Assembly (NCBI RefSeq): GCF_016863655.1
Contig: NZ_BOPH01000003.1
Span: 21,142-85,141, forward strand
DNA from: Virgisporangium ochraceum
Lineage (GTDB): Bacteria; Actinomycetota; Actinomycetes; Mycobacteriales; Micromonosporaceae
Direction: 5' to 3'
DNA: 64,000 bases
Part shown: positions 54,536-59,255 of the stretch, piece after piece
Layout of the letters: each line of letters opens with the position of its first letter
How positions within the stretch are numbered: the first letter of the stretch is position 1
Notes under the pieces: generated by a model
Told to the model about the DNA's origin: nothing
The model's database searches: none
The model's input: only the letters and a program-made list of their open reading frames with translations
Position numbers and translations under genes: made by a program

Positions 54536-55945
54536 TTAACGAGGGACACCTTGGTGGCGTCCGCGCCGCCTGCCGGGCTCGCGCGACAGCCGTCCCACCA
54601 GGCCGAAGCGGCTCGTGGGACGCGGCGGCGCCTCCACGTCGGGTAGCAGCACCACGACGCTCGCGCCACCGAACCGGCTCCGCCCGATGTTCACGGCGCC
54701 GTTGACGCCCGCGGCGAGCCTGCGCGCGATGTCGAGCCCGAGACCTGTGGAGCCCTTGTTGCTCACGCCCCGCTGCATCGCCGCCTCAGGGTCGGGGATG
54801 CCCGGACCGCCGTCGTCGACGCGGACGGCCACCCAGCCGTCCCGCCGGGTGACGGCGACCTCGATCGGCGTGCCCTGCGGCGTGTAGCGGAAGACGTTGC
54901 CGAGGATCGCGTCGAGCGCGGCCGCGAGGTCGGCCCGCGACACCGGGACCGGTGCGGGCAGCGTCGCGCCGACGCGCTTGCACGTGCGGCCCTGGTCGCC
55001 GGCGACCGCCGACCAGAACACCATGCGCTCGCGGACGATCTCGCTGGCGTCGCACCGGGCACCCACGGGCAGGCCGTCGGCGCCGACCTTGGTGATCTCG
55101 CCGGTGTTGGCCGGAGGCTGCCGGGCCGACCGGATGAGCTGGTCGACCTCGACCTCGAGGTTGTTGATCGAGCGCCGGACCCGCTCGCCGGCCGGGCCGG
55201 TGATCGGCTCGGCGTCGAGGCGCAGGGCGGTCAGCGGGGTCCGCAGCCGGTGCGAGAGGTCCGCGACCAGCTCACGCTCGGCCTTGATCAGGGCGAGGAC
55301 GCGCTCGGCCATCGAGTTGAACGCCTGCCCGGCCTCCATGAGTTCGAGGGGACCGCCGGGCTGCACCCGCACGCCCAGCTGCCCGTCGTTGAGCGACCGG
55401 GCGGCCTGGGCGAACGACTTGGCCGCGCCGACCACCTTGTGGGCGAGCCGGTCGCCGACCCACACCGACGCCGCCACCAGGCCGACGGCCAGCGCGAACA
55501 GGGTGAACCAGGCCAGTGCCACGCCCTTGTTCAGCTCGTCCTCCGGGACGAACACCTCCACGACGGCGACGGTGCCGTCGGACAGCCGGGCCGGGGCGAG
55601 CAGCGCCTTACCACCGTCGACGTCGACGGTGAGCATCTCGCTGCCGTCGTCGGCCTGGTCGATCTCGGCGGTGCGGGCCCGACCGGTACCCATCTGCACC
55701 GACGGGGAGTTGTGCACCGCGACGCGTCCCTCGGCGTCGCCGCTGATGGTGGTCACCGCGGTGTTGACCGCGGCCTGGTCGGGCCGGACGACCAGCACGG
55801 CCACGACGGCGGCCGCGATCCGTTCGGCGTCGGCGACCGCGCGGTCCTCCGCGAGCTGCTGCACGACGAGGCCCAGCGGAATGAGGAAAGCGATGGCCAC
55901 CATCGAGGTGACCGCGACGCTGACGTACGCCAGCGCGGCCCTCAG
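54536..55945 (-). CDS. Sensor histidine kinase
   Basis: About 470 residues. First transmembrane helix about 10-32 (AYVSVAVTSMVAIAFLIPLG), an outer domain, second helix near 160-182, HAMP, HisKA with DLSHRLRTPLTAL, and HATPase with ILGNVFRYTPQGT, DDGGPGIPD and STGLGLDI. The 3' end is clear. For the start, the frame has no ATG/GTG near the response-regulator stop. CTG 55943-55945 overlaps that stop and fits domain length. An ATG at 56084-56086 would add 47 residues that read as out-of-frame regulator sequence. Signal unknown. Confidence 0.87.
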   Translation of the reverse strand: MRAALAYVSVAVTSMVAIAFLIPLGLVVQQLAEDRAVADAERIAAAVVAVLVVRPDQAAVNTAVTTISGDAEGRVAVHNSPSVQMGTGRARTAEIDQADDGSEMLTVDVDGGKALLAPARLSDGTVAVVEVFVPEDELNKGVALAWFTLFALAVGLVAASVWVGDRLAHKVVGAAKSFAQAARSLNDGQLGVRVQPGGPLELMEAGQAFNSMAERVLALIKAERELVADLSHRLRTPLTALRLDAEPITGPAGERVRRSINNLEVEVDQLIRSARQPPANTGEITKVGADGLPVGARCDASEIVRERMVFWSAVAGDQGRTCKRVGATLPAPVPVSRADLAAALDAILGNVFRYTPQGTPIEVAVTRRDGWVAVRVDDGGPGIPDPEAAMQRGVSNKGSTGLGLDIARRLAAGVNGAVNIGRSRFGGASVVVLLPDVEAPPRPTSRFGLVGRLSREPGRRRGRHQGVPR

Positions 55946-56628
55946 TCGGGTGCCGTGAACCGAACCCCGACCCCCCGCACGGTGTGCAGGTATCTCGGGG
56001 CCGCCGCGCTCTCGCCCAGCTTGCGGCGGAGCCAGTACAGGTGAACGTCGATCGTCTGGTCCTCCCCCACCGAAGGCTGACGCCATACCTCCTCCAGAAG
56101 CTCTCGACGGGAGACGACCCGGCCGGGCCGGGCGGCCAGGTAGGCCAGAAGATCGAACTCCTTGCGCGTCAGGGTCAACGGCGCGCCGTCAAGGTACGCC
56201 TGCCGCTGCGCGAGGTCTACTTTCAGGCCGCCGGCCTCCAGCACGCTGGGTGGTTCTTTCACCCCTCGGCCGGTCCGCCGGAGCACGCTCGCCATCCGCG
56301 CGTCGAGGTGCGCGCTCGTGAACGGCTTGACCATGTAGTCGTCGGCACCCGCCTTGAGCAATCGGACGATCTCCGCCTCGTCGTCACGCGCGGTAGCGAT
56401 GATCACCGGAGCGTCGGAGACGCCCCGGATCATGCGCAGCGCGTCGGCGCCATCGAGATCGGGCAGTCCAAGGTCGAGAACGACGCAGTCGGGGGCGTCG
56501 GAAGCCACCCGCCGTAACGCCTCCAGAGCGGTGCCGACCGCGTACACGGTGTGCCCCAGGTCAGTCAACGAGCGCAGCAGGGCACCCCGCACCACGTGAT
56601 CGTCCTCGACGAGCAACACCGTCGCCAT
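55942..56628 (-). CDS. OmpR-family response regulator
   Basis: 228 residues. The receiver has phospho-Asp in VVLDLGLPDLDG, acidic pair VEDD near 7-10, and Lys in MVKPF. The C-terminal winged helix includes LTRKEFDLLAYLAARPGRVV, VWRQPSVGEDQTIDVHLYWL and RGVGVRF. The ATG at 56626-56628 gives the standard N-terminus. It overlaps or abuts the kinase gene. The upstream 177 nt, shared with the divergent DUF559 gene, contain a palindromic repeat. Confidence 0.95.
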   Translation of the reverse strand: MATVLLVEDDHVVRGALLRSLTDLGHTVYAVGTALEALRRVASDAPDCVVLDLGLPDLDGADALRMIRGVSDAPVIIATARDDEAEIVRLLKAGADDYMVKPFTSAHLDARMASVLRRTGRGVKEPPSVLEAGGLKVDLAQRQAYLDGAPLTLTRKEFDLLAYLAARPGRVVSRRELLEEVWRQPSVGEDQTIDVHLYWLRRKLGESAAAPRYLHTVRGVGVRFTAPD

Positions 56629-56682
56629 GGCTGTCACCGTACTGTCCCCATGTTGCGCGTGGGACTCCTGGGCCGGGTTCCC

Positions 56683-56738
56683 CCGCGATCTTGGACGTTC
56701 GTACATCGATTTCGATGCCCAAGTGTCCAAGATCGGGA
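56683..56738. repeat. Palindromic element, subtype B, left of the DUF559 gene
   Basis: Outer arms CGATCTTGGAC (56686-56696) and GTCCAAGATCG (56725-56735). Inner arms CATCGA (56704-56709) and TCGATG (56712-56717). Its left 33 nt (56685-56717) match 57746-57778 with one difference; the right half has decayed. It lies between the divergent response-regulator and DUF559 genes. Confidence 0.85.
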
Positions 56739-56804
56739 GGGTTGTCCACAGGCCTCCCACCTGGGGTGGCGGGCCTGCCGGGCGGGCCGGCGGAGTGCGG
56801 CGGC

Positions 56805-57728
56805 ATGGAACTTCCCCGGCCGGACGCTGACGAGATCGACTGGCTGCGTTTCCAGCAGAACGATGTCATCAGCTGGGCGCAGGCCCGCGATCACCTCGGC
56901 CGGGGCGCGGCGGCCAACCGGCTCCGGGGCGGGCAGTGGCAGCGGCCCGCATGGGGAGTCGTCGTCGCGCACTCCGGTCCGCTCACCCGGCAGCAGCAGT
57001 TGTGGGCCGCCGTCCTCCGCGCCGGGCGCGACGGGGTGCTGGCCGGCACCACGGCCGCGACGCTGGAAGGCCTGCGCGGCTACGACAGGCCGGCGATCGA
57101 TGTCCTGATCCCCGCCGGTCGCCGGGTCAGGTCGGCTACCGGGGTGCGGGTCCACCGCACCGCCGCGCTGCCGCCCGAGCACGTCCGGTGGGTCGGCTCG
57201 CCACCGCGCACCACCGTCGCCCGTTCGGTGGTCGACGCCGCAGCCTGGGCAGCCACCGACGACGACGCACGGGCGATCGTGGCCGCGGCCTTCCAGCAGA
57301 GGCGCGTAGCGCCGGGCGAACTGGAGGCCGTGCTGAGCGTGATGCCGCGCAGCCGCCGGCGTGCCCTGGTTCTCGAGACGGCGGCCCTCGCCAGCGGCGG
57401 CTCCCACGCGCTCACCGAGCTCAACCTGGTGACCCTGTGCCGCCGGCACCACCTTCCCGCGCCCGACCGGCAGGTGCACCGGGCCGACGCCTCGGGACGC
57501 GACCGTTACCTCGACGCCTACTGGCCCGAATACCGGCTGCACGTGGAGGTGGACGGCTCGTGGCACCTGGAGGTCCGCACCTGGTGGGCCGACATGCAGC
57601 GCCAGAACAACCTCTGGATCACCGGCGACCGGGTACTCCGCTTCCCCGGCTGGGCCCTGATCCACGAGCCGGCCAAGGTCGCGGCCCAACTCCACGCCGC
57701 CCTGGTAGCAGCCGGCTGGACCCCCTGA
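56805..57728 (+). CDS. DUF559 (Vsr-like) nuclease-domain protein with AbiEi-like N-terminus
   Basis: 307 residues. The N-terminal 90 resemble the winged-helix region of AbiEi/type IV antitoxin-like proteins (FQQNDVISWAQARDHLGRGA, LRGGQWQRPAWGVVVAHSGP). The middle carries VRSATGVRVHRT. The C-terminal 110 form a DUF559/Vsr endonuclease fold (ELNLVTLCRRHHLPAPDRQV, RYLDAYWPEYRLHVEVDGSW, HLEVRTWWADMQRQNNLW). The Asp/Glu/Asp positions are intact. ATG 56805 has a weak SD; the frame is open further upstream but crosses the palindrome. It is bracketed by palindromes at 56683 and 57740. Confidence 0.83.
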   Translation: MELPRPDADEIDWLRFQQNDVISWAQARDHLGRGAAANRLRGGQWQRPAWGVVVAHSGPLTRQQQLWAAVLRAGRDGVLAGTTAATLEGLRGYDRPAIDVLIPAGRRVRSATGVRVHRTAALPPEHVRWVGSPPRTTVARSVVDAAAWAATDDDARAIVAAAFQQRRVAPGELEAVLSVMPRSRRRALVLETAALASGGSHALTELNLVTLCRRHHLPAPDRQVHRADASGRDRYLDAYWPEYRLHVEVDGSWHLEVRTWWADMQRQNNLWITGDRVLRFPGWALIHEPAKVAAQLHAALVAAGWTP

Positions 57729-57739
57729 CCCACCCCCTT

Positions 57740-57803
57740 CTTTCCGCGATCTTGGACGCTCGTACATCGATTTCGATGTACGAACGTCCAAGATCGCGGA
57801 AAG
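57740..57803. repeat. Near-perfect 64-nt palindrome, subtype B, right of the DUF559 gene
   Basis: Arms 57740-57770 and 57773-57803, 31 bp each with one mismatch (57759/57784) and a 2-nt centre. Arm begins CTTTCCGCGATCTTGGACG. It sits 12 nt after the DUF559 stop and 7 nt before the stop of the opposing gene. It is long and symmetric well beyond a terminator; a T-rich tail is absent. Confidence 0.92.
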
Positions 57804-57809
57804 CGGGGG

Positions 57810-59255
57810 TTAGGAGGATAGGAGTTGGTCTACCGGGGCGTGGTCGTCCCGGAGGATCATGGCGTTGCCGGCCCACGACCTCGCTTCCACGACCGCGGCC
57901 GGCTCGGGTACCCGGGCCACCGCGTCCGTGATCGCGGCGAGATCGAGGGGCGCGTCCGAGGCGACGATCACGAAGTTGGCGCTCCGGCTGCCCGCCAGGG
58001 CCTCGGGTGGCGAGATCACCAGCACGTTCCGGAACACCTGGGCGACGGTGGCCGCCTCCGCCCTCACGAACCGGCGGCCCGGGCCGTCGATGACGTTCAG
58101 GGCGTACACCCCGTCGGAGCGTAGGACGCGGTGCACGTCGCGGGTCAGCTCGACGGTCGCCAGGTGCCACGGCACCACCAGGTGCCCGAACGCGTCGCCG
58201 ATCAGCAGGTCGCGCGAGTCGGTGGCCTCCCGGGCCAGCAGCGCACGCCCGTCACCCGTATGCACCCGCAACGACGGGCCGGTCACCAGGCCGAGCTCGC
58301 GGCGGTCGAGGGCCACCAGGCCCTCGTCGAGCTCCAGGACGACCTGGTCGCGGACGGTGTCTGCGTAGTAACGGGGCAGCGTGAACCCGCCGCCGCCCAG
58401 GTGCAGCACGTCCTGCGGGGGCCGCAGGGCCACCACCGCGGTGATCCACTGGGCGTAGGCGAACTCGAGGTGCTTCGGGTCGTCGAGGTCGACGTACGAG
58501 TGGCGGGCCGAGTTGAGCCACAGCGTGCGGCCCGAGGGACGGTTGGGGTCGGTGGTCACCGAGGCGCAGTGGTACGCGGTCTCCACGTCGCACGGCGTCG
58601 GCGCCACGGCGGCCAGCCCGGCGGCGCCCAGCCCGATCACGGCCATCGAGACCCGGCCGCGCCGCGACACCCACAGCCCGAACCGGAACGACAGCCACAG
58701 CCCGATCACCGCGGTGACCGCGGCCACCAGCAGGACGATCACGCTCGACGGCAGGAAGCGCACCAGCACGAACCCGGTGCCGAGGGTCGCCGTGATCGCG
58801 CCGAGCGTTCCGACCGACGACAGCCGGCCGACGATGCGGCCGGTCACCGCCAGGTCGTCCAACTGCAGTTTGATCACCAGCGGGGTCACCGCCGACAGCA
58901 GGGCGGCCGGGAGGAACAGTGCCAGCAGGGCCAGCATCACGACGTTCGCCGCGTCGGTGCCGCGCAGGAACTCGCCCGCGTAGCGCACCACCGGCACCGT
59001 GACGGCGGTGGTCACCGCTCCGGCGAGCATTGCCGGGCCGAGGAGCCGGCGCGGGTCGATCCGGTCGGCCAGCCAGCCGCCGGTCCACGCTCCATACGCG
59101 ATGGCCGCCAGGGCCACGCCGATCACGGCGCTGCTGGTCTGCAGCGTCACCCCGACATAGGGCCCGACCAGCCGCAGGCCGACGATCTCCAGCACCAGCA
59201 CGGCGCCGCTCGAATAGAACACCAGGGCACCGGCGAGGCGCGGGTGAAGAGGCAC
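57810..59255 (-). CDS. Membrane spermidine-synthase-like (fused MFS/methyltransferase-type) protein
   Basis: 481 residues. Seven or so transmembrane helices in the first 210 (LVFYSSGAVLVLEIVGLRLV onwards), then a spermidine-synthase-like Rossmann domain: LHLGGGGFTLPRYYAD, ELDEGLVALDRRELGL, HTGDGRALL and DLLIGDAFG. The usual GGGDG loop is GGGGF here, so polyamine synthesis is doubtful; a transferase using another decarboxylated or plain SAM substrate is possible. ATG or GTG at 59255. No polyamine genes nearby. Confidence 0.83.
   Translation of the reverse strand: MPLHPRLAGALVFYSSGAVLVLEIVGLRLVGPYVGVTLQTSSAVIGVALAAIAYGAWTGGWLADRIDPRRLLGPAMLAGAVTTAVTVPVVRYAGEFLRGTDAANVVMLALLALFLPAALLSAVTPLVIKLQLDDLAVTGRIVGRLSSVGTLGAITATLGTGFVLVRFLPSSVIVLLVAAVTAVIGLWLSFRFGLWVSRRGRVSMAVIGLGAAGLAAVAPTPCDVETAYHCASVTTDPNRPSGRTLWLNSARHSYVDLDDPKHLEFAYAQWITAVVALRPPQDVLHLGGGGFTLPRYYADTVRDQVVLELDEGLVALDRRELGLVTGPSLRVHTGDGRALLAREATDSRDLLIGDAFGHLVVPWHLATVELTRDVHRVLRSDGVYALNVIDGPGRRFVRAEAATVAQVFRNVLVISPPEALAGSRSANFVIVASDAPLDLAAITDAVARVPEPAAVVEARSWAGNAMILRDDHAPVDQLLSS

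Follow-up and report, generated by a model that had tools for sequence, protein, structure and literature searches.

The locus described here raises the question why a gene for a putative nuclease is enclosed by two copies of the same palindrome, and what the enzyme and the repeat have to do with each other. It is located in a stretch of 64,000 nucleotides from Virgisporangium ochraceum, which was analysed as a whole and is referred to as the window. The answer that we favour on balance is that a system spread across the Micromonosporaceae has one of its units in the window. Its protein probably binds the palindromes cognate to it and would cleave DNA next to them, whereupon repair would copy them. 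The bracketing of the gene, its recurrence, the resemblance of flanking copies to each other, their match with dispersed copies, the co-occurrence in genomes and the empty sister sites are the computed parts of this answer, and the folds are its predicted parts.

The first-pass annotation had described two like elements enclosing the gene, the right one as a near-perfect palindrome, and its coordinates and description proved correct. Repeat analysis of the window revealed a direct repeat of 53 nt with 89% identity (56683-56735 versus 57744-57796); the right copy is an inverted repeat with 42-nt arms (88%), and the less palindromic left copy has 30-nt arms (77%). The core is exactly 48 bp long in both copies (Table 1). 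The half-decayed state of the left copy had been taken as a sign of age, which is not supported, since in the dispersed copies the two arms vary freely from each other at the middle positions and the decay therefore need not mean that this copy is old. An Rfam scan of 55500-59000 gave a single weak match (E 0.64). A GTAG-type head is absent from both window copies, and no GTAG is shared in the 14-nt flanks listed for the copies of the genome.

Table 1. Positions of the palindromes, the enclosed gene and its predicted parts in the window.
Feature	Position	Strand	Remarks
Upstream 48-bp palindrome, GATCTTGGAC...GTCCAAGATC	56687..56734	.	end 70 bp 5' of start codon; same family as dispersed copies
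TTGTCCACAG motif, between upstream palindrome and start	56742..56751	+	also upstream of other DUF559 genes
Gene (307 aa), AbiEi-like N-terminal and DUF559/Vsr-like C-terminal half	56805..57728	+	ATG at 56805, TGA at 57726-57728; halves from profile and fold predictions
AbiEi-like part, residues 9-197	56829..57395	+	predicted inverted-repeat binding
Vsr/homing-endonuclease-like nuclease part, residues 200-305	57402..57719	+	fold prediction, DUF559 profile
Downstream 48-bp palindrome	57748..57795	.	19 bp 3' of stop codon; arms reach about 57729-57814

The gene product had been described before as a 307-residue protein with a Vsr/DUF559 nuclease domain, and this agrees with its length, its Vsr-like predicted fold and its score of 19.6 bits against Pfam DUF559, slightly below the cut-off of 20.6. 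Three close homologues reach 32.6, 18.2 and 20.8 bits. According to the predictions, an AbiEi-like antitoxin fold in the N-terminal half is joined to a Vsr/homing-endonuclease-like C-terminal half with a putative PD-(D/E)XK-type catalytic fold, which resembles the homing endonuclease I-Bth0305I. Residues E205, D237, E248, D250, H254 and D263 are invariant across 80 homologues. The gene has a response-regulator-like gene on one side and an opposite-strand gene on the other. The closest nucleases, 64-66% identical, are those of Planosporangium and of a Dactylosporangium metagenome assembly, and the palindromes beside them have another middle but are similar in their inner CATC/GATG block.

Among named genomes, 26 homologues were identified, and matches at 1e-30 were found in 76 of 150 Micromonosporaceae genomes, with at most 15 candidates scored per genome. 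An order-wide search gave 1e-40 matches in 63 of 298 genomes, those outside the Micromonosporaceae being weaker. A strong palindrome was defined as one of 46-56 nt with a pairing of 70% or more and with 6 or all 7 of the outer pairs formed, a threshold chosen after examples had been seen, and 107 distinct genes were considered after exclusion of duplicate loci and of genes whose alignment starts after residue 40. A strong palindrome lies within about 260 nt upstream of 57 of 105 homologous genes and within 190 nt downstream of 63 of 106, compared with 6 of 153 starts and 4 of 112 stops of neighbouring genes (Fisher 3e-21 and 4e-21, uncorrected for relatedness) and 2.0% of 884 random windows of the same loci. 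Both flanks are occupied at 37 of the 107 genes, at least one flank at 83 and neither at 24. The downstream element starts at the stop codon (median +1), which it overlaps in 25 of 63 cases, and the ends of the palindromes at these loci read GATCTTG, GATCTAG, GATCGTG or others. Synteny on both sides assigns the loci to 18 groups, the largest of which unites 13 distinct Micromonospora genomes, and leaves many loci single; three of the 18 groups each consist of one locus that was retrieved twice. Moreover, 11 of 13 distant homologues (34-37% identity) are flanked by a palindrome on one side or both, again with other ends, as do 5 of 7 further close homologues, one of the seven being the same gene as that of locus L239. 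In the metagenome bin G007 (L085/L224), a perfect 48-bp palindrome starts at the stop codon of the homologue.

The type of palindrome can be compared between the flanks, the enzymes and the genomes. Upstream and downstream copies of one locus share 80% identity on average versus 51% between loci, and the own partner is the best match in 21 of 42 cases. On a tree of 77 nucleases the end classes change 13 times versus 27 when shuffled. In 95 of 112 cases, the inner cores of dispersed copies, which played no part in finding the copies in eight of nine genomes, resemble the flanking copies of their own genome more closely than those of every other genus; this was counted over copies among the matches listed and the catalogue of the window's genome, with the sister genome G001 contributing one copy. 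At the level of whole genomes, GATCTTG-N34-CAAGATC is present in 71 of 150 Micromonosporaceae genomes with up to 113 copies, and its reversed control in one genome; as this count covers GATCTTG-ended 48-mers only, lineages with other ends score zero. The 48-mer is found in 54 of 73 genomes with a close homologue versus 17 of 77 others, and 974 of 1048 such 48-mers belong to genomes with a close homologue (within-genus permutation p 2e-4), three genomes with a best match of 1e-33 to 1e-30 being classed as without one. Copies also occur in five genomes that lack a close homologue, in numbers of 20, 16, 9, 7 and 6. G163, which has the most copies of all (113), contains the homologues L331, L337 and L348, of which only a distant one is palindrome-flanked, and by another type. 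The window's own exact palindrome occurs in none of 60 relatives and nowhere in the GTDB collection, which may omit the window's own genome; it is found nowhere else because the inner part is lineage-specific.

A REP/RAYT-like pairing with a different enzyme family, as had been proposed from the window, is thus supported by the flank counts against neighbouring genes, the resemblance of flanking copies and the co-occurrence in the 150 genomes. The related check, whether the palindromes cluster beside DUF559 genes, was positive with close homologues and lineage-variable palindromes and looked negative with the exact arm and the five other DUF559 genes that Pfam detects in the genome, none of which is near a window-type palindrome among the matches listed (100 of 118). 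We judge this five-gene comparison misleading, because it missed the homologue C77 and because palindromes differ between paralogues. C77 itself lies between palindromes of another subfamily and represents a second pair in the genome. Of the distant DUF559 genes of this genome, 2 of 4 have a palindrome; C53 (about 48% identical) and C27 are counter-examples.

The genome of the window (11.4 Mb, 200 contigs) contains GATCTTGGAC 59 times per strand versus 2 times for the reversed control, so that the palindrome clearly exceeds chance. A catalogue built from sites where one arm matches GATCTTGGAC exactly or nearly, with 100 of 118 GATCTTGGAC matches listed, comprises 48 palindromic 48-mers including both window copies. 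They are located between convergent (21), tandem (18) or divergent genes (3), within called genes (3) or at unclassified sites (3). By crude gene calls on the same sequence, convergent spacers make up 16% and divergent spacers 27% of the total spacer length, so the copies prefer gene 3' ends. The gene calls for these shares, for the neighbour-gene controls and for the contig-end sites come from a home-made codon-composition caller. In addition to the 48 copies, six contigs start or stop inside a palindrome (L139, L145, L157, L161, L172, L175), and the element therefore breaks the assembly.

The main subfamily (33 copies) is defined by CATCG on one side. Positions 1-9 are paired throughout, the one exception being position 5 of a single copy, and positions 18, 19, 21 and 22 carry the identical pair in 33 of 33 copies; positions 10-15, 17, 23 and 24 are variable with hardly any compensation (best z 2.0, position 11). 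As the searches required one good arm and CATCG set one side, only the other arm counts as unselected evidence. The outer GATCTTGGA and the inner CATCG are almost invariant, whereas no compensation accompanies the variation of the bases in between; from this pattern it can be assumed that each half-site has these two motifs as blocks by which duplex DNA is recognised. Recognition as duplex DNA is preferred because the middle positions show no compensation within the genome, and a hairpin selected as RNA or single strand is disfavoured for the same reason. Across loci the pairing does covary, in frames that were preselected at 40% or more inner pairing, which biases toward covariation.

The sister genome G001 is collinear with the window on both sides at 81-88% identity and lacks about 56677-57806, the palindrome-gene-palindrome unit, in place of which it has about 138 nt holding one diverged 48-nt element in the same frame. 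Twenty sites were prepared, and 16 were used as flank query. Two-sided synteny was obtained in G001 at six other sites, five of which lack the palindrome (L197-L201), while the sixth (L202) has a longer GATCTTGCAG-type palindrome; the remaining fetched sites are one-sided or rearranged. A longer GATCTTGCAG-type palindrome is also present at L209, where one flank was queried, and at L211 in G002, with none in G001 there. In the spacers of L202, L209 and L211, a longer GATCTTGCAGTTGTG...CACAACTGCAAGATC palindrome replaces the 48-mer in sister genomes. The five empty G001 sites display no clear target-site duplication. The comparison with sister alleles that the first-pass annotation had suggested was positive in that G001 lacks the unit, and negative in that no clean insertion with target duplication was seen. 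G002 contains no GATCTTG-type 48-mer, and of its 50 candidates the 15 that were scored include no homologue at 1e-30. Elsewhere in G001 (L347, G001:C22:76972-80655), a homologue adjoins a palindrome of the abundant type of that genome; it aligns to about residue 240 only, its frame is open for 402 codons, and its C-terminal end may be altered.

In the spreading mechanism that we favour, the AbiEi-like half would recognise the duplex cognate palindrome via two blocks per half-site, the Vsr/homing-endonuclease-like half would cut beside it, and repair of the cut would copy the palindrome into new sites. Clearly less probable is that the palindromes are operators, with the AbiEi-like half repressing its own gene via the upstream copy, the dispersed copies acting as regulon or decoys and the nuclease having another job, e.g., in defence. 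The predicted N-terminal fold and the copy upstream of more than half of the genes (57/105) would suit such a role, as would the autoregulation of AbiEi proteins through inverted-repeat binding, which is described in PMC7319586. However, downstream copies are equally frequent (63/106) and begin at the stop codon, and the dispersed copies lie between convergent rather than divergent genes (21 versus 3 of 48), contrary to the spacer shares. Somewhat less likely still is a homing element, whose nuclease cuts an empty palindrome so that the whole unit is copied in, the dispersed palindromes being older and multiplied otherwise. The predicted likeness to I-Bth0305I and the single diverged element at the unit's place in G001 would fit, but no second locus of this kind was seen. 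Matches at 1e-30 number 1-6 per genome, as expected of a low-copy gene, related species of the synteny groups have the gene at the same place, and searches gave no plasmid match and one phage match at 34%.

Host-made hairpins, e.g., transcription terminators at gene ends with the nuclease gene as one of many neighbours, would account for the copies between convergent stops. This reading is improbable, since neighbouring genes rarely have a palindrome, the two copies beside one gene match each other, copies are concentrated in genomes having the gene, and the middle positions lack compensation in the window's genome. Least probable of all is that a trans-acting Y1 transposase (RAYT or IS200/IS605) mobilises the palindromes, which would then be REPs, with the DUF559 gene as passenger; the general likeness to REPs, as described in PMC2817692 and PMC8266576, points this way. 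Mobilisation of this kind was rejected: PF01797 is unmatched in the window's genome and in the nine genomes richest in copies, and its presence among the 150 genomes is unrelated to palindromes (20/41 versus 51/109).

The spreading mechanism places the gene, which is low-copy and chromosomal, beside palindromes as the high-copy part, and this combination is shared with REP/RAYT systems, as are the position of the nuclease gene between two palindromes, the cognate copies dispersed between genes, the tie between palindrome type and enzyme lineage and the possibility of several pairs per genome. In contrast, the enzyme here is an AbiEi/DUF559 fusion instead of a Y1 HUH transposase, the element has 46-56 nt, mostly exactly 48, without a GTAG head, and the hosts belong to an actinobacterial family, whereas the origin of RAYTs is given as gammaproteobacterial in PMC2817692. 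The window protein is thus not a RAYT, but by analogy it may work like one. With AbiE type IV systems it has the predicted AbiEi-like fold in common, but a predicted C-terminal nuclease is fused to it, whereas AbiE has a partner gene for the AbiEii nucleotidyltransferase toxin, and palindromes both bracket the gene and lie scattered elsewhere. The predicted catalytic fold with invariant acidic residues and a histidine is that of Vsr and I-Bth0305I, yet here it is fused to an AbiEi-like half, encoded by a stand-alone chromosomal gene and accompanied by dispersed palindromes. Like MITEs, the elements are short, palindromic and high-copy, and their sites are empty in a relative; unlike MITEs, they are just 48 bp long. 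Among the fetched loci, no parent insertion sequence having such ends was noticed, and no clear target duplication was seen at the five empty sites.

It appears to us evenly balanced whether a second class of palindrome-spreading enzymes has evolved independently in the AbiEi-DUF559 proteins. They would combine a homing-type nuclease with an antitoxin-derived inverted-repeat reader that steers it, each lineage having its own 48-bp elements and sometimes two pairs per genome, in the Micromonosporaceae and, because palindromes adjoin more distant homologues as well, in much of the wider DUF559 family. If true, unrelated enzymes gave rise on at least two occasions to the REP/RAYT lifestyle, in which a tame nuclease of low copy number accompanies dispersed palindromes, and a nuclease acquired its targeting module from an antitoxin fold. 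This would also explain a class of lineage-specific actinobacterial repeats that disrupt short-read assemblies. Judged by titles and abstract starts, no paper listed in an open-access library links DUF559 or AbiEi-nuclease fusions to dispersed palindromes. For DUF559, a widespread domain of unknown function, a substrate can now be predicted concretely, and nature offers dozens of pairs of enzyme and palindrome whose specificity is swappable and testable.

A further feature of DUF559 genes is the TTGTCCACAG motif, which we take to be similar to an actinobacterial DnaA box. Within 159 nt upstream it occurs exactly in 30 of 106 genes, or in 52 of 106 with one mismatch allowed, and exactly in 0 of 1505 control windows. 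As a component of the palindrome-nuclease pair it was dropped, and since it is found near distant DUF559 genes as well, it is regarded as a trait of DUF559 genes rather than of the pair.
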